From the IMG/VR virus record IMGVR_UViG_3300031963_000791, positions 1 through 26,975 of that record: DNA of 26,975 nt. One strand, 5' to 3'. The notes under the pieces were generated by a model. The model saw nothing but the letters and a program-made list of their open reading frames with translations, did not search any database and was not told the DNA's origin. The translations under genes and the position numbers were made by a program. This document shows positions 365-26,924 of the stretch, piece by piece (the first letter of the stretch is position 1; every line of letters starts with the position of its first letter). This DNA is from a virus.

Positions 365-2863
365 TTATCGCGTTCCAGGGTTGATGCCGGTGCCGGTGCT
401 TACCGCCACCTTCTCGCCGGTGGCCATCTCGGCCGCCGCAAGCAACTTGGCGGTGTCATTGTCCGCCGTGTTCATACGCTCACGCGCGGCCACCTCAGCC
501 GCGGTGCGCTGGCTTTCGGCCATCTGCCGGAACTGCTCAGCCTGCAACTTCTCGGCACGCGCCTGCTGCTGATCCGTAAGCTTGGCCGCATCATTCTGCT
601 GCTGGATTTGCAACTTCTGCTGCTCAATCTGGATCCGCGCCTGATCAACTTGGGCACGCTGCTGCAACGCCTGCCCTTGGATTTGGGCATTGAGTTGCGC
701 GACTTGCATGCTGCTGTCGGGCGGCATCGGCGGTTGCGGCCGGAATTGCTGGGCGGCCTGATCAATCTGCGCCAGTTCTTGGCCAAAGGCGCCAAGCTGT
801 TGCTCAATAAACTGCTGGACTTGTATAATCACCTTAGTCTGCTCAGTTGCCTCGTCAGGAATAAGGCCCTGCTTGCTGGCTTCGTCCACAGCATTGTGCG
901 CCTCCACCAGATAATAGTTCAGCAGATGGTCGCGCAGGTGGGTGGCCATGGGATACAGGAACGTCTTCACGATCACCGGGTTGCTGCCAAACAGCGGGGA
1001 CTTCAAGAACGCCATGTGCGTCATGATGTGCGCCATGTGATCCTGCTGCGGCATCACATAAATCGGCCGCCCCATGGTGGCCGCGACATTTTCGCTGACC
1101 GGGTCCATGTTCTCGGTTGCCGGCAGCGGTTGCAACACTTCATCCGCCGGCACCTTGAGGGTGCGGAGGAACATCTCCTCCACCTTCCGCATGTCGTACA
1201 TCTGCGGCAGGGCGCCAGCACGCTGCATGATCGCTTGGATCTGGGCAAAGCGCTGCGTTTCAGAGAAGATCGCCGGGTCACTGACGGGGACGACATCGAG
1301 CGGCCCATCAAAGTCTGCCGGCTCAATCTCAATGCCAGCATCCTGCGCCTCAATATCTTCCTCAGTCAAATAGGCGCTGTTGATGCGGTGCAGGATCTTG
1401 AAGCACCGCGCCATTGAGTTGTGCAAGCGCGAATGGATGCTGGAAAACACCACCATCCCCTGCTCAATCAGCGCCATGGTCGTGCCGACAGGCTGATTGG
1501 GGTTCTGGTCGCTCAGTTTCTCAAAGCTGGTCTGCACAACGCCCTTGCCGGCGTCCACCAGGAAGCCCAGCAACTGGAACAGCGTGGGGCTCGGCGGGTT
1601 GAACGGCATGGGCATGGCGAGCTTACGCACGTCATCAATCAGCGCGCCGCCCTCCATCTCCACCACTTCAGTCGGCTGAAGGTTGATGGTCTGGCCGCCA
1701 GGGCCGCCCTTGAGCTTCAGCAGGGTGGGGATGTTCTGGATGTGGGCACTATCAAGCAAAGCCCGCAGCGCGCCCGTAGCAGCCCCAGAAAGGCCGCCAA
1801 TCATGTGCGTCAGGCCAATAGGATAAGCACCGCGCCAGGGCACAAACGGGAACTCAACGATCCAATCCAACTCTTTGTGGTTGGGGTCGTCCTGCTCCCA
1901 GTTGCGATACAGCGCCAGCGCCTTGCCGGTGGATTTGTCCACGCTCAGGATGTAGGGGCTGACGCCCTCATCAAAATCCAGAAACGTGTAAATCTCAAAG
2001 ATCGTCCGCAGCCCGTCCTCGTTGTAGCTGGTGGACTTGCGGCCCTCGATCTTGTCATTGGCGATGCTGGCTTTGGAGAACTCCGGATCATCCGGGTAGC
2101 CAAGATCCACATCAATATACATGCCCGCCTTAACGCGCCGCTCATATTCCATCTTTGTGATGTACTGAACATGCGTCTTGCGCTCGGCCGAATAGAAGTT
2201 GGTGGCAGCAAACGGCAGGTAAACGTCGTCAATCGGCACAAACTCGGCCTGGGGGCGCCGGTGCTGATTGTTCCACATGAATTTCATGTATTGGCCGCCG
2301 CCGAGCGGCAGCTGCGTGCTGAGCTGCTCCAACTCGGAGCGGAACTCCGGCATCTGCTCGGTGGTCTGCCAATTCATGAAGGTGGCCTTGCGCTCGGCCT
2401 TATCCACCTTCTCTTTGTCTTTTTGGCCGTAAATTTTACTCTTTACCGGGCCATTGGGCGGGAAAATTTCCTTCATGAAGCGCGCGGAGAAATCCACGCA
2501 CGCTTCCACCAGCATCGGGTGAACGACCTTATTGGCGCCCGTAAACTGCGCGCCGCCAGGAGCGTCATCCCCCAAGCCAGTGCGGCGGAGGCCCTCCTCG
2601 TAAAGCTTGTCGCGCTTTTCTCGGGCTTCCTTGTCGCGGTCTATTTTTTCAAGAAGATCGTTTACCGCTTCTTTGAGAAGCGACGGATCAACCTCTTCCA
2701 CAATGTTCGCAAAGTGTTCCAGGTTGCTTTGATTTTCTTCTTCATTCTCAAGCCGAATGATTGCTCCGCCATCTTCAGTGTCCCTCACTTCGCTGTTTTT
2801 GTCGTCCAGAAACTCTACAGTTTCGCCGCGATCATCGTCGTCATCATTGAGAGTTTCAGACAT
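365..2863 (-). CDS. phage portal (head-tail connector) protein
   Basis: This is the likely portal, the dodecameric ring at the capsid vertex through which the terminase packages DNA. It has 832 residues from the ATG at 2861-2863. That start has GAGG six bases upstream and overlaps the previous gene by eight bases; an in-frame TTG lies four codons earlier. Features seen: an acidic N-terminus with a run of Asp; the segment ANKVVHPMLVEACVDFSARF followed by EIFPPNGPVKS, typical of large podovirus-type portals; a long mixed wing/stem region; and a Gln-rich helical, probably coiled-coil, C-terminus from about residue 690 to 800. It follows the terminase genes on the same strand, the usual order. 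The family is recognised by sequence character and context; the exact subfamily is not certain. Confidence 0.88.
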   Translation of the reverse strand: MSETLNDDDDDRGETVEFLDDKNSEVRDTEDGGAIIRLENEEENQSNLEHFANIVEEVDPSLLKEAVNDLLEKIDRDKEAREKRDKLYEEGLRRTGLGDDAPGGAQFTGANKVVHPMLVEACVDFSARFMKEIFPPNGPVKSKIYGQKDKEKVDKAERKATFMNWQTTEQMPEFRSELEQLSTQLPLGGGQYMKFMWNNQHRRPQAEFVPIDDVYLPFAATNFYSAERKTHVQYITKMEYERRVKAGMYIDVDLGYPDDPEFSKASIANDKIEGRKSTSYNEDGLRTIFEIYTFLDFDEGVSPYILSVDKSTGKALALYRNWEQDDPNHKELDWIVEFPFVPWRGAYPIGLTHMIGGLSGAATGALRALLDSAHIQNIPTLLKLKGGPGGQTINLQPTEVVEMEGGALIDDVRKLAMPMPFNPPSPTLFQLLGFLVDAGKGVVQTSFEKLSDQNPNQPVGTTMALIEQGMVVFSSIHSRLHNSMARCFKILHRINSAYLTEEDIEAQDAGIEIEPADFDGPLDVVPVSDPAIFSETQRFAQIQAIMQRAGALPQMYDMRKVEEMFLRTLKVPADEVLQPLPATENMDPVSENVAATMGRPIYVMPQQDHMAHIMTHMAFLKSPLFGSNPVIVKTFLYPMATHLRDHLLNYYLVEAHNAVDEASKQGLIPDEATEQTKVIIQVQQFIEQQLGAFGQELAQIDQAAQQFRPQPPMPPDSSMQVAQLNAQIQGQALQQRAQVDQARIQIEQQKLQIQQQNDAAKLTDQQQARAEKLQAEQFRQMAESQRTAAEVAARERMNTADNDTAKLLAAAEMATGEKVAVSTGTGINPGTR

Positions 2864-5576
2864 ATTGTGCCTCAATCTGTTTTGCGAGCTGGTCTACCGC
2901 CCGCGGATCATAGGCGGAAACTGAACCTCCGCCAGCGTATTTGGCATGCAGCTTGGCCAGACCGCCATGGGCATAGCCGCGCCCGTAATCCATGCCGTAG
3001 CCTGCTGCACCATATGCCGGCGTGGGCTCCGGCGCGTTGAAGACCCCAGGCTCATAACTCATTACCGTGGGATCCAGGCCCAACTCTTTGCCGATTTCGT
3101 TGCCAATCATGCCGCCAATCGCGCCAGCACCAGGAATGCCAGTTGCGAGGCCCATTAGGCCGCCGACAACCCCCAGCGCGCTGACGCTGACCGCCGGCGT
3201 CTGGTTGCCAAGCTCATCAACATTGACGCCCACCTGCATGCCCGGCGGTGACATCGCGCTCTGGACGCCGTAGCCCAAGGCTTGCCCAAAACCGATTTCG
3301 CCGCGCCCCAAGGCGCCAATGGCTTCAGCAATACCCGGCGCAGCATTGAAGCCAGTCGGTGCCACGCCCCCGGTATCGGCAATACCAAAGCCTCGGCCAG
3401 CCTCTTGCGCGGCCACGGCCGTGTTCATGTTGGCGGCTTGTTCGGTGCCCTCAGGATCTGCGTTTGACATACCTTGGTTGCCTTGGCCTGGGCCACCGCC
3501 AGCGCCAGCACCCGTAGGGCCAGCGCCTTGGCCTTGGTTGCCGCCAACAGCATCCTGAGTGGCAGCTTCAGACATAGAGTTTGCGTTGTCGCTGCCCGGC
3601 CCTTCTCCAGGCCCCTCATCATACGCCCGGATGCCGTGCTTGGTCATGCGGCCGGAACCACCGCGCGCCTTCAGCAGCGCAGCCTCCCGATCCGTAATGT
3701 AAGCAAGCTTATGCTCCTGGCCGCCAATGTAAGTTTTGGCCGGCGCCTCTACCTCGCCGCCCTCGGCAAACTCCTGCACAATCCGGTCAATCTCATCCGG
3801 GTCATACGCAGTTGCAGGCTCACGCACCATGCCACCCTCTTCATAGCGGCGCACAAGGTTAATCAGATCAGGGTCAAAAACACCTAATTCTTGATGATAA
3901 TATTTTACAGGGGAATAATCTAAAGAAACACTGTCATGCCCTCTTGAGATAATTTTTTGGGCAACTTCTTTCGCGCTGGCGTCCATTGGAAGATTTAATT
4001 CTTCACGAATTAATCTACGTTTATCCGCAAACCAGGAAGGCAATTTTAATTGAAGTGGATTTTCAATTTGCAAATCAACTTCATATCGAACAGGCCAGAC
4101 TGGTGCTCCTTGGGCATTAAGTCGCTCAACACCTGCTTTATCAGTGGAAAAATACAAAGCGCGCCCTAATTGCCCCTCATCGGTTGTGCTTCCGGCTTTT
4201 GAGATATCAAACCGTCTAAAACGATACGGGCTGCCGTGGTAGGCGCGAATAGACGCAGGCCCCTCAGTAAACCCGCGCACAGCATTGATCTGCCGTTCTT
4301 CTTCCGGCGTAGGCTCAACAGCGCCACGCACCACAGCGCTCATACGCTGGCCAGCCTCACCAAAGGAACGCGGCATCGGCGCAAACCCGCGACCCTCTGC
4401 TGACCGCAGCTCAGCAACAGGCTCGCCAGCCCCAACAGCACGATCAGCCAGGATGCTGAGATAGTCCTCGTCAGAAGGGCGAGGTACAGGCGCAGAAGCC
4501 GGGCGGCGGGCGCGGCCGCCCTCGGCATACTTCTGATCCAACTCAGCAAGGCCGCCCTCGGCGTAGCGGCGCGTGATGTCAATCAAATCATCGCCAAACA
4601 TGACGTAGTTGCGGGTGTTTTGGCGTCCGGTTCTGCTGCCAGCATCAAGATAACGCAAGCCAGGAATGCCAGCCTCACGCAATTGCGCGGCAATCTCAGG
4701 CGTCCGCAAATCAATGGCCTCGCCAATTGGCTTCATCTCGCGCTCAAGAACGCGGGCGCTTCCTGTGCGCGGTGCGCGCAAGACATCTTCAAGAAATGGA
4801 ACGGCGCGCTCGGGCTGCCGCACAAGCGGCGCATCCCAATTCACCAATTCTTCTGGTGTGGTACGAAGTCGCACTTCATACATGTGGCCGGGAGAATATG
4901 AAATTTCAGGCAATTTTTGCTTTGACCTTAAAAGTCGTATAGCGTCAGCAGCGACATCAACGCCAAATCCATTTTCTGCATTTTCTTTGATGGCTTTGAT
5001 GGCTTTTGCTCTACTTCCATACATTTGATCCATTGAGGAGGCATAATGGTCAAAGCGTGAAAAATTAGGATTTTCACCGCCAATCAAACGCCTTCCTACA
5101 GATTGATCTCTATATCTACGCGCTACAGGCTCAGCGCCAGCAAAATACAGCCCGCGTCCATAAGCAGTCGCCCCCTCACCCGTGCCAATCTTGCTGATAT
5201 CAAACCGTTCAAAACGATGCGGGCTGCCATGATAGGCACGAATGGACGCAGGCCCTTCAGTAAACCCGCGCACAATATTCAAGCCCATTTGCTCTCCAGG
5301 CGTAGGCTCAACCTCACCACGCAGCATCGCGCTCATGCGCTGGAACCCTTCGCCCTGAAATGGCGTTGGCGCAAACCCGCGACCCTCTGCTGACCGCAGC
5401 TCAGGCACAGGCTCACCAGCCCCGACAGCACGATCAGCCAAAATGCTGAGGTAATCCTCGTCAGAAGGCCGAGGCACAGGCGCAGCAGCCGGGCGGCGGG
5501 CGCGGCCGCCCTCGGCATACTTCTTGGGCTTGCCTCGATACTTCTGGTTCAGATCACGGAGGGACTTGGCGGCCAT
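2856..5576 (-). CDS. 906-aa protein with two ADP-ribosyltransferase-like (polyvalent-protein) domains
   Basis: A late-operon protein that probably enters the virion. From the ATG at 5574-5576 (GAGGGTG upstream) there are two homologous halves. Residues about 18-112 and 348-442 are nearly identical (KYAEGGRARRP, then PVPRPSDEDYLSILADRAVG). Each is followed by an ART-like core, at about 113-340 and 443-582, starting IRAYHGSP and containing FDISK and G-R-[GA]-L-Y-F. His of YHGS and Tyr of LYF fit the first two positions of an H-Y-x ART triad, as in phage polyvalent-protein ARTs. The first core ends with GIPGLRYLDAGSR; the second is shorter and divergent. Then come YAEGG-type motifs, a Gly/Ala-rich linker, a Gly-rich hydrophobic stretch (about residues 800-850) and another GG motif near the C-terminus. 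Enzyme activity is inferred, not shown; either copy could be inactive. Confidence 0.75.
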   Translation of the reverse strand: MAAKSLRDLNQKYRGKPKKYAEGGRARRPAAAPVPRPSDEDYLSILADRAVGAGEPVPELRSAEGRGFAPTPFQGEGFQRMSAMLRGEVEPTPGEQMGLNIVRGFTEGPASIRAYHGSPHRFERFDISKIGTGEGATAYGRGLYFAGAEPVARRYRDQSVGRRLIGGENPNFSRFDHYASSMDQMYGSRAKAIKAIKENAENGFGVDVAADAIRLLRSKQKLPEISYSPGHMYEVRLRTTPEELVNWDAPLVRQPERAVPFLEDVLRAPRTGSARVLEREMKPIGEAIDLRTPEIAAQLREAGIPGLRYLDAGSRTGRQNTRNYVMFGDDLIDITRRYAEGGLAELDQKYAEGGRARRPASAPVPRPSDEDYLSILADRAVGAGEPVAELRSAEGRGFAPMPRSFGEAGQRMSAVVRGAVEPTPEEERQINAVRGFTEGPASIRAYHGSPYRFRRFDISKAGSTTDEGQLGRALYFSTDKAGVERLNAQGAPVWPVRYEVDLQIENPLQLKLPSWFADKRRLIREELNLPMDASAKEVAQKIISRGHDSVSLDYSPVKYYHQELGVFDPDLINLVRRYEEGGMVREPATAYDPDEIDRIVQEFAEGGEVEAPAKTYIGGQEHKLAYITDREAALLKARGGSGRMTKHGIRAYDEGPGEGPGSDNANSMSEAATQDAVGGNQGQGAGPTGAGAGGGPGQGNQGMSNADPEGTEQAANMNTAVAAQEAGRGFGIADTGGVAPTGFNAAPGIAEAIGALGRGEIGFGQALGYGVQSAMSPPGMQVGVNVDELGNQTPAVSVSALGVVGGLMGLATGIPGAGAIGGMIGNEIGKELGLDPTVMSYEPGVFNAPEPTPAYGAAGYGMDYGRGYAHGGLAKLHAKYAGGGSVSAYDPRAVDQLAKQIEAQYV

Positions 5577-5577
5577 A

Positions 5578-8100
5578 TCATTCACCCTCAAGGCCAGCGG
5601 CAGCGCCGGCACCCAAAAGCCCAGGGACAACAAGCGGCTGTTGCCTATTCGCAAAGCGGCGGAACACTTCTTCAGGCGTCAAGCCACGCTCAGCAGCACG
5701 ATCATCAACAACCCGGTTAAAGATGTTGTCAAACGTATCAAGGCTGCTTTCACGCACGCCCGTGCGCTTTGCTGCGCCCATCCACAAACTTGCCTGCAAC
5801 TGCGCTGGCGTCATACCCATGCGATTGGCGATATCCAGCGCAAGCCGCTCATAAGCACCATACTCGTTGTCGCGCGGCACCTCGTCCCAAACTGTGGGGC
5901 GGTTGCGAATGAACTGGAACAACTCACCTTCTGCACCGCCAGCCTCCCGCACAGCACGCGCTGCATTAAAGCTCGTCTGCATCACTTCCTTGCCGGTTGC
6001 ATCCTTCACCTTGCGGGTCTTGATGTTATCACGCGCAATTTCTGGGAAGCGTTCAGCAATTTCAGACGCAAGCTCTTGGCTGATCACAGCGCTACCATGC
6101 AGGAAGCGAGGATCATTAGACGCCATACCAATGAAGCGCATGAAATGCTTGTCGGCCGCGATGTTCTCAGGATTGCCAAGCAGACTGTTGGCAAAACCAC
6201 GAGGCTTTGGCGCTCGCGTTGGTTCAATATTTTGAAGGAACTCACCGCGATCAATAAGGTTACTCAAAACCCCTTGATACTGTTGCGTCAAACTACCGTA
6301 AGGCTCAGGTGGCCGTGGGTATTTCCCGGTTGCCTCAAACTCTGCTTGGCGCGCAGCGCGCGACTCGGCAGGTTCAGCAAAATAGTAAGATGCCTGCCGA
6401 ATATTGGGATACACAGCATTGCCAGGGCTGGCGCCACCTATGCGATACATAAATTCAAGCCACGCATCATGGCCTGCTTTTTCACCAAGCTCGTCAATAA
6501 ACCGCTGCCGCGTGGCCTCGGTGTTGTACCAAGCGCGGCCAATATCTTCGCCTTCGCGAGCCGTAGCCATGATGTCATTCAAAAGGTCTGGCTCGTTATC
6601 AAGCCGCCCTTGGAACTCGGCAAAGCGTGCGCTTTCACCTCTTGCAGGCGCATGCCGAATTACCGTGCCAGGGCTTCTGTCAGGCGCTGCGCCAGGAACG
6701 TCAGGAACCGGAATGGCCTCACGCAATCCGCCAGTAGCTGGTTTGCCGGAACGCGCCGCGCCAGCAGCCATCAAAACTCCTCTACCAGTTGGCGGCTTGT
6801 TAGCCCCAATGACAGCGCGGGGGTTTGGCTCAAAATCAACCTCTGGCACTTCGTAGTTGATCCTGGGCGGCCGGCGACCACGCCCAGCACCCAGCGTCTG
6901 CGCCGGGCCACCCTGCACCCCAGCCATGGGCATCAGATCCAGCGCCCCAGGCACCGCCAAGGATGTCTCGCCCGTGTCCACATCTTGGCCCACAGGCAGC
7001 ACAGCAGACCGGCGCGTGGTAGCCGCAAAGTCGCGCACGTCACGGCCTTTGCGGCCGGCAGGATCAATCAGGCGCCCGTCTGGCATCTCAATGGCGTAGC
7101 CGCTCTGAGTTGCTTCCGTCTGCACAATCCGGCCACCCTCGGGGATCTCAATCCCCGCCATGGCGCTCAGCATGCCGCGCTGCACATCCTCCGGCCGCGG
7201 GATCAGGCTTGCCGCCGCCTCAAATGGCGACACCGCATTGCCTGGGTAGAACACACGGCCGCCACGAGGCACCGGCACACCGGCAACGCCTAGGCGCGAA
7301 GCCGGCGTCATAAGCGGATCCCGCTCCAGCAGGCGCCGATCATACTCCTCATCAGCAGAGCGGATTGTCGGCGCGTCGGCGTAGCGGTCCTCCATGTCAA
7401 TCAGGCTCTCGCGCACGCGGCCGCCCTCGGCGTAGCCCTCAACGCCAGCACGCCTCATGATATTCTTAACGTAATCTTGCGTTTCAGTAATTCGGGGGAT
7501 CTGATTGCCGGCCTGGGCAACCCTGTTGGGCCCGGCATTGTAGGCAGCCAAGGCAAGCGGCAGGCTGCCAAAGCGGTCAATCTGCTGGCGCAGATACCGG
7601 GCGCCGGCATCAAGGTTCTGCGCCGGATCATAGCGGTCAGCACGCAAATCCGCCGCGGTGCCGGGCATCAGCTGCGCCAAGCCATAGGCGCCCCGGCGGC
7701 TGCGGGCCTCCGGGTTGAATTTGCTTTCCTGGTAGACCAGCGACAGAAACACGTCGCGCGGCAGGTTATACTTCTCCGCCAGCCTGATAGCCTCGGACAC
7801 CCAAGGATTGTCGGCGGGCAGCACGGAGCCAATGCGCGGCGGCACGGCATCGCCGGCAGTCTCGCCGGGGAATACACGAGGGGGGCCAGCCTCTGCGCTA
7901 TCCCCGGCTGTTCGGGGAGGTGCCACAGCCGGAGGAATGGGAGGCAGCGGCAGAGACTGGCGGCTTGCAGACCTGCGCTGCTCGGCCGCTAGGGCAGCAG
8001 GCACGTCAAACTCTTGCATGCGGGGGCGGCGCGTAGGGCGCTCCAGCTCACGCATAATATCTAGGGGCGGGCGGGGCGGAAGCGGGAGGGATCCGGACAT
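5578..8100 (-). CDS. 840-aa lytic transglycosylase (SLT) fusion, polyvalent virion protein
   Basis: The N-terminal third holds a classic soluble lytic transglycosylase domain at about residues 98-218. The catalytic Glu is in YQESKFNPEARS (residue about 125), followed by GAYGLAQLMPGTA, the DAGARYLRQ helix and LALAAYNAGPNRV. It should cleave peptidoglycan, most likely during DNA entry because the gene is in the late head operon. After the SLT comes a YAEGGRV motif, a Pro/Gly-rich linker, then a 350-residue C-terminal region (with RAWYNTEATRQRFIDELGEK and WDEVPRDNEYGAYERLALDI) that looks conserved but that I cannot name. The start is the ATG in TAATG overlapping the previous stop, with AAGGTGA upstream; a GTG two codons earlier is less likely. 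Confidence 0.88.
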   Translation of the reverse strand: MSGSLPLPPRPPLDIMRELERPTRRPRMQEFDVPAALAAEQRRSASRQSLPLPPIPPAVAPPRTAGDSAEAGPPRVFPGETAGDAVPPRIGSVLPADNPWVSEAIRLAEKYNLPRDVFLSLVYQESKFNPEARSRRGAYGLAQLMPGTAADLRADRYDPAQNLDAGARYLRQQIDRFGSLPLALAAYNAGPNRVAQAGNQIPRITETQDYVKNIMRRAGVEGYAEGGRVRESLIDMEDRYADAPTIRSADEEYDRRLLERDPLMTPASRLGVAGVPVPRGGRVFYPGNAVSPFEAAASLIPRPEDVQRGMLSAMAGIEIPEGGRIVQTEATQSGYAIEMPDGRLIDPAGRKGRDVRDFAATTRRSAVLPVGQDVDTGETSLAVPGALDLMPMAGVQGGPAQTLGAGRGRRPPRINYEVPEVDFEPNPRAVIGANKPPTGRGVLMAAGAARSGKPATGGLREAIPVPDVPGAAPDRSPGTVIRHAPARGESARFAEFQGRLDNEPDLLNDIMATAREGEDIGRAWYNTEATRQRFIDELGEKAGHDAWLEFMYRIGGASPGNAVYPNIRQASYYFAEPAESRAARQAEFEATGKYPRPPEPYGSLTQQYQGVLSNLIDRGEFLQNIEPTRAPKPRGFANSLLGNPENIAADKHFMRFIGMASNDPRFLHGSAVISQELASEIAERFPEIARDNIKTRKVKDATGKEVMQTSFNAARAVREAGGAEGELFQFIRNRPTVWDEVPRDNEYGAYERLALDIANRMGMTPAQLQASLWMGAAKRTGVRESSLDTFDNIFNRVVDDRAAERGLTPEEVFRRFANRQQPLVVPGLLGAGAAAGLEGE

Positions 8101-8375
8101 TACCACTTCACCTTATTGGCCCAATAGGCCGCGCTGCTGGGCCCCTTGGCGATGTTGGCAGAATGCCGCGCCTTAAACGATGCGCGCTTGGTTTTCATCC
8201 GTTCCGATTCGCCTTCCTTGGGCTTGCCGGCGGTGGAAGCGCCTTGCTCACCAAAGCGAATGACTTTCTCTTTGCCGTCGTAGCACGCCTTCACGACATG
8301 CGACTTGGTGGGGTGGTCAGGCGTGCGGCGCGGCTTGTTGCAGGCCATCGCGTCCTTGTCCACGCGGTTGCTCAT
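8100..8375 (-). CDS. 91-aa conserved basic phage protein
   Basis: A small Lys-rich protein of unknown function. It contains KEKVIRFGEQGASTAGK and ends with RHSANIAKGPSSAAYWANKVKW. A small protein with a closely similar [FR]xARHxA...SAxYWxxxVKW ending is, from memory, frequent beside phage terminase genes. A Cys-x-Cys-poor sequence (only two Cys) argues against a zinc finger. Its start overlaps the previous gene's stop as ATGA, and its TAA overlaps the ATG of the transglycosylase gene. The context suggests a packaging or head-assembly accessory, but this is inference. Confidence 0.8.
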   Translation of the reverse strand: MSNRVDKDAMACNKPRRTPDHPTKSHVVKACYDGKEKVIRFGEQGASTAGKPKEGESERMKTKRASFKARHSANIAKGPSSAAYWANKVKW

Positions 8376-8536
8376 TTCTTGCGGGCCGCTCGCATGTTAT
8401 CGACCATATTGGGATAGGGCCGCCCGGCCGCCTTGGCCATGGCCTTCGCAGAAGCCTTCTGATCGTCAGACAGGCCCTTGGGTTTCCCCAGGCCCTTGGG
8501 TCGGCTCTTTTCCCAGATGGGCTTCTTAGACGGCAT
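8372..8536 (-). CDS. 54-aa basic protein after TerL
   Basis: From the ATG at 8534-8536, with AAGGGT nine bases upstream, this encodes a strongly basic peptide beginning MPSKKPIWEKSRPKGLGKPK and ending MVDNMRAARKK. It overlaps the end of terL by 11 bases, and its TGA overlaps the next ATG by four. The Lys/Arg/Pro-rich composition suggests nucleic-acid binding or disorder; no domain is recognised. An upstream in-frame start would extend it by 16 residues into terL and lacks a better ribosome site. Confidence 0.72.
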   Translation of the reverse strand: MPSKKPIWEKSRPKGLGKPKGLSDDQKASAKAMAKAAGRPYPNMVDNMRAARKK

Positions 8537-10097
8537 ACGGGTTGACCCTTTCGCGCTTGTACTGCCGCGGCTCGTCACGTTCACGCGCCTGCGGCAGATC
8601 GAACCAGCCCTCGTTTTTTAGGTATATTACGGCTTGGCTGAAGGTGTCCACATAATCATCATGCTCGGCCACGGGGAATTTGGCCAACTGCTTCAGGAAC
8701 GCCTGCGCCCAACTCACGGGCTGCCCTCGGTTCTTGCCGCTCTCAGGCAGCCAGAGGAAGCCCATCTCCAGCGTGGGGCTGGCCTGATGCGCCCGGCTGA
8801 TCTTGTCGGCGTTGCCTGGGTTGTACCCAATGGCCGGCACCTTGGCCAACCGCAGATCCTGCAGCAGCGACTGCCCAGAGGCCTTGGCTTCCACTAGGAT
8901 CCGGTCAGCCCGGCGGGCGGTGCGAAGGCCATCCTTAACCGTTGTCCCGCCATACTCGGTTGACCAGTCCTTGATCACCCTGGACCGCAGCTCGGGGTAA
9001 CTGAGATGCTCGTCCCAGGCGTCAATCAGCATGGCGTTGCGCTGGCTGTTGTAAGTGAAGATGCCCCAAACCGTACAGGCGGTGGGGTCGCCCGAGGTTT
9101 TCTCAGTGAAAGCGCAATCATAGGATTGCAGGATGTACTCGAACTGCGGCAGGCCCTTATCCGCTGGCCAAAGCTGAAACTCTTTGGTTTTGAGGATGCC
9201 GCCTTCGCTCGGCACCGGATCCTGCTGCAATTGGCCCGAGGTGCCATAGCTGCCCAAGAGTTGCTTCAGCTCGGTGATTTCTTTCTCGCCAAATCGCTCC
9301 GGGCAGATCAGCTCACCTTTCTGCTGCCGCGGATCGTAGGGGCCCATACTGGTCTTGCGGCGGACCCCATCCCACTCGGCTGGGATCATGAGATGTTCCC
9401 ACCCGCCAATGTCTGCGAGGATATGGCCGCTGATGTCGCGCTCATGCAACCTTTGCATAATCGTTACCATGGCATCCTTTTTGGGATCGTTGAGGCGGGT
9501 ACTCCACACCATGTCAAACCATTCAAGCGCGCTATCGCGGATCACGTCAGACTGCGCTTCCTGGGCGCTGTGCGGATCGTCTAGGATCAGGCGGCTGCCG
9601 CCTTCACCCGTAGCCGTGCCGCCCACGCTGGTGGCTAACCTATAACCCGTCTTGTCGTTCTCGAACCTTTGCTTGGCGTTCTGATCGCCCGCAAGCTTAA
9701 ACATGTGGCCCCACCGCTCCTGATACCAGGGCGATTGGATCAGGCGGCGCGCCTTTAGGTTGTCGCGGATGGAAAGGGTGCCGCTGTAGCTGGCGCAGAG
9801 GTATTTGTGTGATGGGTCGGTCAACCATTCCCACATGGGCCACATCACGCTGACGATGGTGGATTTGGAATGGCGCGGCGGAATATTGATCAGCAGCTTG
9901 CGGATCTCGCCGGCGGTGATGGCTTCCAGATGCTCGCAGATCTCTTCAATGTGCCAGGACGGAATGAAGGGGACGCCGGGCTCAACCACCGGCCAAGCCT
10001 GCTGCACAAACTCATAGAGGCTCGCAGAGGCCGCCCGGCGCTTCTGCTCGCGCTCAATGAGGCCCAGCATAACCTCGGGCGTCAACGGGACATTCAT
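8526..10097 (-). CDS. terL: terminase large subunit (ATPase and nuclease)
   Basis: This is the DNA-packaging motor. The N-terminal ATPase domain has the Walker A-like IPPRHSKST at residues 73-80, characteristic of one large group of phage terminases. A Walker B stretch, RLILDD, lies at 169-174, followed by PHSAQEA. The C-terminal RNase H-like nuclease has three plausible metal ligands: Asp327 in QSYDCAF, Glu403 in ILVEAKASG, and Asp480/481/484 in EHDDYVDTFSQA. At 523 residues the length is normal. The ATG overlaps the terS stop (ATGA). TerL should work with the small subunit encoded just upstream and dock on the portal encoded downstream. Confidence 0.97.
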   Translation of the reverse strand: MNVPLTPEVMLGLIEREQKRRAASASLYEFVQQAWPVVEPGVPFIPSWHIEEICEHLEAITAGEIRKLLINIPPRHSKSTIVSVMWPMWEWLTDPSHKYLCASYSGTLSIRDNLKARRLIQSPWYQERWGHMFKLAGDQNAKQRFENDKTGYRLATSVGGTATGEGGSRLILDDPHSAQEAQSDVIRDSALEWFDMVWSTRLNDPKKDAMVTIMQRLHERDISGHILADIGGWEHLMIPAEWDGVRRKTSMGPYDPRQQKGELICPERFGEKEITELKQLLGSYGTSGQLQQDPVPSEGGILKTKEFQLWPADKGLPQFEYILQSYDCAFTEKTSGDPTACTVWGIFTYNSQRNAMLIDAWDEHLSYPELRSRVIKDWSTEYGGTTVKDGLRTARRADRILVEAKASGQSLLQDLRLAKVPAIGYNPGNADKISRAHQASPTLEMGFLWLPESGKNRGQPVSWAQAFLKQLAKFPVAEHDDYVDTFSQAVIYLKNEGWFDLPQARERDEPRQYKRERVNPYAV

Positions 10098-23843: not shown

Positions 23844-26800
23844 TTACTGAGGTTGGCGCCTTGATAGGTCTTCCAAAATACGCACCGCTGCAGCAACCTC
23901 ACGCGGGTCAGAAGACCGCAGCAGGCCATTGATGCGCGTTGCGTAACGATCATCAATCTCGCCATTCCTTATGGCCTGGGCCACAAGGTTGGTCAGGGAA
24001 CGGTCCCAATTAACAATACCGGATCCCTGGCCACCACGTTCATTGGCCTTGTGAAACAGCTGCGCTTCGCGGTTCAAGGCCGATACAAACAAATCTGACC
24101 GCGCTGGGCTTTCAAAAATGCCTTCCACCCTGGTCCGCATGGCAGGGGAGTTAATCAAGCGTTGCACGTCAGGCAGCTTGGCTTCCGGGTTCATGATGAA
24201 GCTATAGATGTTCTGCACATCACTCTGCGGGTTCTGCGGTTGCGCGCTTTCTTCGTCAAACAATTCGCGCCCAGCAGGGCCGGCAAGCCAAGCCTGGAGT
24301 TTCTTGATGCCCTGATCTTGCAAGCGCGGATTGGTCGTCTGGCGCATGAGGTCAGCAAACAACTCGGGGTCTGTAATTGAGCGAGTGATCAGTTTTTCTG
24401 CGCGGTCACCCGTCAATGACCGAATCCAATCACGGGCTCTGGCAGACCCCATAGAAGCCGCCTGCAGGCTGCCGGCCATGCCATTCCCACCCATGGCGGC
24501 ACCAATTCGCGCGCCAGCGACACGGCCCAGATAGTCAAGGATTTTGCTGGGCGTGTCATCAACAACACCACCGACAGAAGGCAGCTGCCCTCTGGTACGC
24601 TCAAGCGCCATAAACTCATTGGCAATTTGATCCAGCCGCTTCATTTCGTCTGGATTGAAAACAGCCTCATAGGCAGCGCGTTGCTGGGGGTTCCTTAGAT
24701 TGTCAAGAATGACACTGCCCCTGAAAACTTCACCTTCCGGCGTTGGGGTGCGCGCTTGGGCAAGCAGGTCACTAACAAACGCACCGCGAAGGCCGCTCAG
24801 CGCCTTGCCAGACGTATCGCGGTCAGCAGACCGCCGGAGAGACACGGCAACCTCAGCCGGGTTCTCTGCCTTGAAAATCCGCGCGACAGCATCAGCCGGA
24901 TCACCACCCAAGAAACGACCCATTGGGCTTTCAGAAGGCGACAACACCTCGCGGCCAATTACCGTCTGCACTTTCGCCAGATCATCGGCACGCTTCTGGG
25001 CGGCCAGGGCATCATCCAGATACTTACGCACATCAGGATACTGATTGAGCAAAGCCTCGTTCTGCCGCATCCAAGATGTGGCCGCTTCTGGCTTTATACG
25101 CCCCTCAGAGGTCACCACACGATCACGCAGGGTGCGCGTTAGATAATCCTGCACGGCCTCCCTGGTGGGCGCGCTGTCGCCCGTGGCGGCCATTAGGCTG
25201 CGCTCAGCAACACCACCCTTGACGCCGCCGGGGCCGATAAGGCGGGTGAGCGTCATTTCGGCTGGGATAGAAGGGGCGCCGCTTGTGGTGTCCGTAAGAA
25301 GGCTGGCTGGCCCTTCACGGAAGGTCTGGTTTATCTTGCGCGAGAAGTCGCGAGCAACAGCGTAGGGGCCGCTCACATCCGGCAGGCTGTTCATCGTGTC
25401 CAGCGTTGCGTCGGCCAATTCACGCGCAAGCCGGGCTTGATTACGATCACCGGCATCGCGGGCCTTGCGTTCAATCGCCAGCAATTCGCCTCGGAAGCCC
25501 TGAAGCTCTGCCGGCGTTTCCATACCCCTCAGGCCGCGATTGCCTTGCTTGTCAGCCTGCAGGAACCGGCGGGCATAGTCTGGGATGTCCTGTTGTTGCG
25601 TGCGCGGGGTGTTGGCAACCAACTCATCAAACCGAGAAAACAGCGGTGCCGTATCAATCTCCACATCCGCTGGAAGACTGCGCCACAGCTCATTTTCTTG
25701 GCGCCGCGCAGCGTCATAGGCTTTGTCAAATTCCTGCCGAACAACCCGCGACGCATCTTCCCTTGACGTGCCAGGATCTAGCGTTGCTACCCGTTCTTGG
25801 GCGCGATTGCGCGCTTGGGAAACAACTGCTTCCAAGGCATTGTCCAGCCGATCACGCCGCGCCGTGAAGAATGCTCTGGCTTGGGCAGGATCCCCGCCAA
25901 GCTTTGCGGTTTCCTCTAGCAGCGTGGTTTGGGCGGCAGCAGCCCGATCAATAAGGGTTTTTGCCATGGCGGGATCTTTGTCCGCCACAGCCTTTTCCAA
26001 AGCCAACAGGCGCACATCCTGGGTGCGCTGTGCTGGCGTCAATTCACTGATGGATGGCCCCTCTGCTGCCCTTGCGGCAACATCCGGCTCAGCGACTAGG
26101 CTGCCCAACCTGCGGCCAGCACGCACCTCTGCGCCAGCTTCCGTAAATGGCGTTAAGCTGGCGCGAGCGCCGCGATACATCATCCCTGTCGGACCGTATT
26201 TGGCAAGCATCGCAGCCAAGCTTGGCGTGAGGCCGCCGGCCAATTCACCGTAAGTGCCAGCCACTTCTGAGCCAGGATAAGCTTGCTCGGCCATATAACG
26301 GCCAGCGCCAGCGCCGGTGCCAGAAGCCATTTCGCCGGCCAAGGTAGCTAGTGGCGCCCGCACAGGAGCATCTGCAACTTGCCCAGCAATTCGTGATGGC
26401 AATGACGCTGGTGCGGCAGGAATTGAAACTGCGGCTTCCTGTCCACCAATTCTGGACATGACTGACCTAGCGGTAGGAGCAAGCGCCCTTGCTGCACCAT
26501 ACCCTGGGATCAACATCCCTGCAGTTTCGCCTACACTTCGGCCAATATATTCTGGGCCGGTTTCAGCTTGCTGTCCCACCTCTGGCACCATAGGCTCGCC
26601 AATAGCTCGCCCATATTTAGCCAAAAGCGCTTCAATACTTGCAGAGCCGCCAACAGGCGCCTCACTAACTGTGGCTGGCCTTGCGCCAGCAGCCGAAGCT
26701 GCTCGACCTACACCAAACGGCAAATACTTTGGGTCCATTCCCAAAACAGCATTTGCAATATCAACCGGGGCACCAAGGATTGATGCCGCGCCGCGGTAGA

Positions 26801-26924
26801 GAAATGGCAGGAACCCGCCGCCACGACCAGTTTCTTCCTCGGGGGAATGGGTATTTTCTGCCGCTCGCGCTCTGGCCGCAGAAAGTGCTAGGGCGCGTTG
26901 TTGTTCAACGGTCAATTCTGCCAC
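23844..26924 (-). CDS. 1026-aa probable internal virion (DNA-ejection) protein
   Basis: A very large Ala/Arg-rich helical protein. Near the N-terminus are Gly-rich hydrophobic stretches (FLPFLYRGAASILGAP; GMLIPGYGAARALA). Long charged helices fill the middle (residues about 290-560), and the C-terminus is disordered then helical (LMRQTTNPRLQDQGIKKLQA). Size, composition and strand fit an internal core or ejection protein, but no signature enzyme motif is visible. The start is GTG with GAGGAG eight bases upstream, overlapping the previous gene by 13 bases. Confidence 0.65.
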   Translation of the reverse strand: MAELTVEQQRALALSAARARAAENTHSPEEETGRGGGFLPFLYRGAASILGAPVDIANAVLGMDPKYLPFGVGRAASAAGARPATVSEAPVGGSASIEALLAKYGRAIGEPMVPEVGQQAETGPEYIGRSVGETAGMLIPGYGAARALAPTARSVMSRIGGQEAAVSIPAAPASLPSRIAGQVADAPVRAPLATLAGEMASGTGAGAGRYMAEQAYPGSEVAGTYGELAGGLTPSLAAMLAKYGPTGMMYRGARASLTPFTEAGAEVRAGRRLGSLVAEPDVAARAAEGPSISELTPAQRTQDVRLLALEKAVADKDPAMAKTLIDRAAAAQTTLLEETAKLGGDPAQARAFFTARRDRLDNALEAVVSQARNRAQERVATLDPGTSREDASRVVRQEFDKAYDAARRQENELWRSLPADVEIDTAPLFSRFDELVANTPRTQQQDIPDYARRFLQADKQGNRGLRGMETPAELQGFRGELLAIERKARDAGDRNQARLARELADATLDTMNSLPDVSGPYAVARDFSRKINQTFREGPASLLTDTTSGAPSIPAEMTLTRLIGPGGVKGGVAERSLMAATGDSAPTREAVQDYLTRTLRDRVVTSEGRIKPEAATSWMRQNEALLNQYPDVRKYLDDALAAQKRADDLAKVQTVIGREVLSPSESPMGRFLGGDPADAVARIFKAENPAEVAVSLRRSADRDTSGKALSGLRGAFVSDLLAQARTPTPEGEVFRGSVILDNLRNPQQRAAYEAVFNPDEMKRLDQIANEFMALERTRGQLPSVGGVVDDTPSKILDYLGRVAGARIGAAMGGNGMAGSLQAASMGSARARDWIRSLTGDRAEKLITRSITDPELFADLMRQTTNPRLQDQGIKKLQAWLAGPAGRELFDEESAQPQNPQSDVQNIYSFIMNPEAKLPDVQRLINSPAMRTRVEGIFESPARSDLFVSALNREAQLFHKANERGGQGSGIVNWDRSLTNLVAQAIRNGEIDDRYATRINGLLRSSDPREVAAAVRILEDLSRRQPQ

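Follow-up and report, generated by a model that had tools for sequence, protein, structure and literature searches.

How did one phage gene come to carry two copies of the same leader, each followed by a different ADP-ribosyltransferase (ART)-like core, and what would such an arrangement do for the phage? The window analysed here, meaning the whole stretch of DNA examined, is the 26,975-base IMG/VR virus record IMGVR_UViG_3300031963_000791. The explanation that we favour as a whole, and which we consider reasonably probable, is that the gene encodes a modular, segment-swapping and injected ART effector of a podovirus-like phage, located in a fixed slot between the terminase and lytic transglycosylase (SLT) genes on one side and the portal gene on the other.

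The effector gene and its genomic setting

The minus strand carries, in order, the genes for the large terminase, a 91-aa protein, the SLT protein, the ART protein and the portal (Table 1). An in-frame TTG at 5654 is an alternative start of the effector gene, which would then encode 932 aa. The order terminase-SLT-ART-portal is conserved in relatives, with identities in the close ones of 78-98% for the large terminase and 81-100% (amino acids) for the portal. The effector gene ends within the portal ORF (2856 versus 2875), and in relatives too the portal follows it closely. The original prediction had placed the protein upstream of the portal, and a portal gene matching phrog_1216 does lie directly downstream of the ORF end; no small immunity ORF was found in that directly downstream position, where the portal ORF overlaps the gene end. 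The SLT gene also matches phrog_342 (internal virion protein with endolysin domain; 6.6e-19).

Table 1. Features of the cargo locus and its neighbours in the window
Feature	Position	Strand	Evidence or remark
Large terminase, syntenic 5' neighbour of the cargo locus	8526..10097	-	phrog_38, 4.3e-92
91-aa gene between terminase and cargo genes	8100-8375	-	phrog_7595
SLT lytic transglycosylase with variable C-terminal region, adjacent cargo gene	5578..8106	-	SLT, 90.5 bits
Modular effector gene, 906 aa	2856..5576	-	ATG at 5576; frame open throughout
Leader copy 1, residues 18-111, constant adaptor, no known family	5244..5525	-	identity of relatives
Core A conserved N block, residues 114-146, with H116 and Y144	5139..5237	-	
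Hypervariable segment V1, residues 147-229, predicted four helices	4890..5138	-	GC 0.42
Core A conserved middle block GHMYEVRL...NWDAPL, residues 230-255	4812..4889	-	
Hypervariable segment V2, residues 256-302	4671..4811	-	GC 0.60
Core A conserved C block GIPGLRYLDAGSR...NYVMFGDDLIDITRRY, residues 303-338	4563..4670	-	
Leader copy 2, residues 343-441, different leader allele	4254..4550	-	amino acid comparison
Core B, residues 442-582, compact ART-PolyVal-like, without large inserts; H447, Y475, E563	3831..4253	-	
Trailer, residues 583-906, Gly-rich with hydrophobic stretch	2859..3830	-	
Portal gene, syntenic 3' neighbour	365..2875	-	phrog_1216, 3.4e-15

In more distant phages the slot is filled differently. 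The terminase-portal gap of Caulobacter phage RW, whose portal is 53-59% identical, holds no annotated protein gene, and in MW202545 and Pelagibacter phage HTVC027P the slot is occupied by other large proteins, the one in MW202545 with a GP88 domain. The cargo position is therefore probably dispensable. Three further observations concern the neighbouring genes. The 91-aa gene is retained in relatives with 84-95% identity. The C-terminal part of the SLT protein differs among relatives (94% in L008, 44% in L012, a partial match in L037 and L046) and may be a second cargo slot. A 1026-aa protein encoded at 23844-26924 has no PHROG match and only a sub-threshold match in Pfam.

Two leaders and two ADP-ribosyltransferase-like cores

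The two leaders form a repeat pair in the DNA (spacing 990/993), with 92% identity over 163 nt (4372-4534 versus 5362-5524) and 81% over 148 nt (4203-4350 versus 5196-5343); at the protein level identity is 81% over about 95 residues. The predicted leader duplicate is therefore real, and only its description as almost identical was slightly overstated. Leader copy 1, for which a PHROG search gave no match, is 81-97% identical to the leaders of the closest relatives, where it stands ahead of differing cargo, and is best matched in L008 and L016 (97%), whereas leader copy 2 is best matched in L005 (93%), L009 (92%) and L022 (90%). Each leader is thus nearer to those of other phages than to the other copy, which makes the two different alleles, so that another phage is the probable donor of the second cassette, and the array was probably assembled from two different phages. 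Tandem duplication of the leader in place was rejected on the same comparison.

Between cores A and B the alignment is limited to an N block of 35 residues (63%) and 19 residues at the C end, and each leader does precede a different ART-like core, as had been proposed. The cores had also been described as AT-rich. From about 0.6 in the flanks, GC content drops to 0.405 at 4900-5099 and to 0.37 at 3900-4099; the dips are real, and in core A the dip is confined to V1. Third-position GC in the lineage is 0.28 in V1 against 0.51 in the conserved blocks. In 30 other loci the values are 0.36 and 0.54 (p 5.6e-9), V2 being low there as well, so that import of low-GC DNA and weaker constraint are indistinguishable, and AT-richness was rejected as proof of foreign origin.

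Across the whole protein, the Pfam family ART-PolyVal (PF18760) reached 43.4 bits in two stretches, above the gathering cut-off of 31.2. Taken singly, core A (23.6 bits) and core B (26.1 bits; profile positions 8-127 of 140) fell below the cut-off, with E of about 1e-5 to 1e-4, and the same was true of the single cores of seven of the eight relatives tested; L039 had no match. In core A, H116 and Y144 are located in predicted strands 112-118 and 143-146, as for the active-site H of strand 1 and Y of strand 2, and in core B H447 and Y475 were placed by alignment with the ART-PolyVal H and Y. Predicted strand 322-326 of core A has N323 where an acidic residue, the strand-5 aspartate of ART-PolyVal, is expected, so that any assignment of the third catalytic residue is tentative. 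The nearly invariant D311 follows predicted strand 306-310, and core B has E563.

A structural model of the leader and core A was obtained with a pLDDT of 72.8 and a pTM of 0.58. In this model V1 is predicted to form four helices between strand 2, which holds Y144, and the GHMYEV strand, and V2 to form helices ahead of the next strand. The model matched predicted viral structures named ART-PolyVal-like (E down to 6e-14); against solved structures it gave no significant match, the best being PARP2 (E 0.59), PARP1 and RES toxin, and the ART profile, when run against the sequences of solved structures, returned chance matches only. The Pfam result and the predicted viral structures, with no significant match among the solved ones, are consistent with an ART fold of core A. 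The AlphaFold model of core B (pLDDT 38) was set aside as unusable. From the sequence evidence we infer that both cores are ADP-ribosyltransferases, with activity predicted.

The cores might instead be catalytically dead or structural, with their variation serving, for example, virion contacts or evasion of a host sensor. N323 and the solved-structure result would suit this explanation, as would L051-L054, where a relative of the trailer is a stand-alone 276-aa gene without cargo. We nevertheless judge it rather unlikely, since the slot also accommodates a nuclease domain, and H116, Y144 and the surrounding glycines are invariant or nearly so across 42 diverse ART-PolyVal-like proteins while the inserts vary freely, as for a retained active site. 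The N block as a whole is near-invariant in this set, a value biased upward by the choice of loci partly on N-block matches; the middle and C blocks are also conserved there.

Exchange of segments and cargo among relatives

Relatives are encoded in 27 viral contigs, and further ones were recovered with leader and trailer queries; a scan of bacterial genomes gave no prophage relatives. When the A-type cores are aligned, three conserved blocks and two variable segments can be distinguished. Most non-identical pairs share 79-97% identity in the N block and most pairs 61-100% in the C block (lowest 47%). Pairwise identity in V1 is bimodal, at either 98-100% or 13-31%, and in V2 it is mostly 89-100% or 12-32%, with the exception of L004-L016 (70%). 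The two segments do not travel together: the window, L009, L012 and L015 have V2 in common (89-96%) with V1 at 18-26%, and L005 and L008 have V1 in common (98%) with V2 at 20%. A direct scan of viral contigs found no relative of the window V1, and the window V2 in five other contigs at 92-100%, including L002, where identity to the window is complete from residue 224 onward.

The changes in DNA identity are stepwise. The window and L012 have the same DNA (100%) for residues 74-133; their identity falls to about 33% in V1 and returns to 86-100% beyond it. L008 and L012 have portal genes identical at 99.8% over 2,496 bp and ART cores that can be aligned only at the three conserved blocks. In the portal tree a single clade was rejected both for the phages with the window V2 allele (p-AU 1.7e-47) and for those with the L005/L008 V1 (p-AU 2e-9). 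Judged by these alignments and trees, V1 and V2 are replaced independently, with alleles that are unrelated or remotely homologous. The L005/L008 V1 has weak relatives (30-35%) in other ART proteins, and identity in the low range of V1 (23.5%) slightly exceeds the shuffled level (17.7%), for which reason the V1 alleles are better called remote homologues than strictly unrelated.

This residual similarity, like the low third-position GC if it meant relaxed constraint, could also be expected if V1 and V2 had diversified by fast point mutation and not by replacement. With the stepwise DNA identities, the L008/L012 comparison and a bimodal distribution almost devoid of intermediates, such an origin is hardly credible, and uniform or point-mutational divergence was ruled out on the stepwise changes. 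Uniform divergence of flanks and cores is not seen in the relatives: flanks can hold 80-100% identity around unrelated cores, and the reverse also occurs, as core B of L047 is 96% identical to that of the window and the C-terminal part of its trailer only 44%. The predicted swapping of cores between shared flanks is thus supported in kind, and the main unit of swapping is smaller than the whole core.

False mosaics could also arise if assemblers had bridged different strains where leader and catalytic blocks are nearly identical. The contigs of L002, L010, L011, L013, L024 and L033 start or stop inside the locus, which is usual at places of strain variation, and 33 of the 44 clustered cores are known from one metagenome only. 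The other 11 distinct cores, which include the L005, L017 and L018 groups with mutually unrelated V1 and V2, were each obtained from between two and four metagenomes that had been assembled separately. One ART, with DNA identity of nearly 100%, is found in different gene contexts in L018 and L037, and the junctions of the window from the end of V1 onward recur in L002. Unrelated V1 DNA must moreover exist somewhere, and chimerism would alter only its pairing. The recurrence of 11 of the 44 cores makes wholesale chimerism unlikely without clearing each junction, those of the window V1 included, and we consider an assembly artefact very unlikely as the general explanation.

Replacement is not limited to segments of ART cores. 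The leader precedes ART A types, ART B (in the window and L047), a PBECR5 nuclease (L009; 57.2 bits, cut-off 25) or modules without a known family (the second cassette of L008, and L031/L032), and in L018, L022, L024, L033 and L047 the leader follows the SLT part without interruption in one fused protein. Arrays of two cassettes occur in the window, L008 and L009. Comparison of these proteins shows, at the level of sequence, a constant leader and trailer framing interchangeable and stackable cargo, which agrees with the resemblance to module swapping in polymorphic toxins noted in the original prediction. The unit of exchange is often V1 or V2, sometimes a whole ART and sometimes a domain of another enzyme class (PBECR5).

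Several other arrangements were observed. In L048-L050 a single protein combines an SLT domain, a region resembling DUF7178 (below cut-off) and the trailer, and so corresponds to a fusion of the two cargo genes of the window from which leader and ART part are absent. In L004 (3-400) the ART is preceded by a ParB-like nuclease domain (phrog_620, 8e-5), and L039 (1353-2066) has a leader-like N-terminus followed by a short YHGGAPNLNK core without a Pfam match, possibly another ART subtype. Module boundaries carry a joint motif like [GS]L..LD.KYA[ED]GG. For the shorter form [YF]AxGG, 52 occurrences were counted in 11 cargo proteins, where 1.7 would be expected, and within the window it is confined to the two cargo genes (2856-5576 and 5578-8106). 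As a general mark of phage ARTs it was rejected, a related motif outside the lineage being seen 11 times against 11.6 expected. The joint motif has a vague likeness to prohead-protease sites; Pfam identified no prohead protease among the head genes of the distant relative MW202545. L010 (132-608) and L011 (384-852) have an extra module of about 130 aa between two FAEGGEV joint copies, as if recombined in at the joint.

The same pattern is present in other phages. Among the 861 pairs of the 42 ART-PolyVal-like proteins, V1 and V2 identities are concentrated at values under 30%; a second, small peak lies above 90%, and the range between the two is nearly empty. Conserved blocks, V1 and V2 are identical at 99%, 15% and 100% in L075/L078, at 96%, 96% and 20% in L093/L094, and at 97%, 16% and 12% in L099/L101. 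DNA alignments show a clean gap of a single segment in L075/L078, L073/L082 and L093/L094, the segment being V1 in the first two pairs and V2 in the third.

Proposed action and comparison with known systems

We propose that homologous recombination between co-infecting relatives would create the combinations, with the near-identical leader and catalytic blocks providing the homology. The effector would be packed into the head and leave it together with the transglycosylase and the DNA, and each ART would use NAD+ to modify host targets early in infection. V1 and V2, lying between the catalytic strands, may help to choose the target, and a swap of either could retarget the enzyme with no rebuilding of the catalytic core. 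Delivery from the head is favoured by the fixed slot among head genes and the SLT-domain fusions. The protein might alternatively be made late and act in the infected cell or after lysis, for instance against competing phages, without being injected. Packaging of the effector is a prediction, and for MuF toxins an additional action on competitors has been suggested (PMC5576092); the slot among head genes, the transglycosylase-domain fusion in five relatives and the lack of an immunity-like gene between effector and portal speak against late action, to which we give a probability as low as that of inactive cores.

More tentatively, and with somewhat less than even confidence, phage ART-PolyVal proteins could be regarded as combinatorial: a conserved catalytic frame would hold two specificity segments, each exchangeable independently of the other and taken from a common pool of low-GC alleles, so that phages with near-identical portals would inject ARTs with different targets. 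The enzymes that phages inject are believed to influence how the first minutes of infection go, and few of their targets have been identified; through segment swapping, phages may be able to vary again and again what is modified in the host. If this is true, the portal gene would be replaced more slowly than the ART cargo, which would suggest that host defences or changes of host exert strong selection. Natural pairs in which the ART differs mainly in one segment, such as L073/L082, are ready-made comparisons of specificity.

The HsdS subunits of type I restriction systems have two variable target-recognition segments between conserved parts, and these are exchanged independently. The likeness to V1 and V2 is one of analogy only, protein and function being unrelated.

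Iyer et al. 2017 (PMC5512222) describe phage polyvalent proteins as adjoining late genes and predict that their ARTs are injected, with T4 Alt as the model, and many ARTs are located near head-packaging genes (PMC9503650). An isolate, Sulfitobacter phage phiGT1, also has an ART-PolyVal gene (phiGT1_5) within its head cluster. With the ART-PolyVal proteins (PF18760) the present protein shares the family, the H/Y motif, a position near head genes and more than one copy per protein; it differs in that one lineage combines constant leader cassettes with two independently exchanged internal segments, an exchange of which we found no description in the parts of PMC5512222 consulted or in the open-access literature searched. 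Phage T4 Alt is comparable in its proposed logic, a head-packaged ART injected to modify host proteins, and differs in its active site, which is R-S-E (PMC5512222), against H and Y here. The MuF polymorphic toxins (Jamet et al. 2017, PMC5576092) likewise have a constant part, swappable effectors and a likely head-associated carrier. In the window, however, the variable cargo is in the middle and not at the C-terminus, no immunity ORF follows, the protein has no relative found in bacterial genomes, and neither Pfam nor PHROGs gave a MuF match for the effector and cargo proteins. As in polyvalent proteins, two ART cores lie beside virion genes and relatives add PBECR5 and SLT domains, and as in polymorphic toxins generally, a constant carrier bears exchangeable domains from a shared pool. 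The system is a variant of the polyvalent phage effectors, with polymorphic-toxin-like modularity and without an immunity gene.
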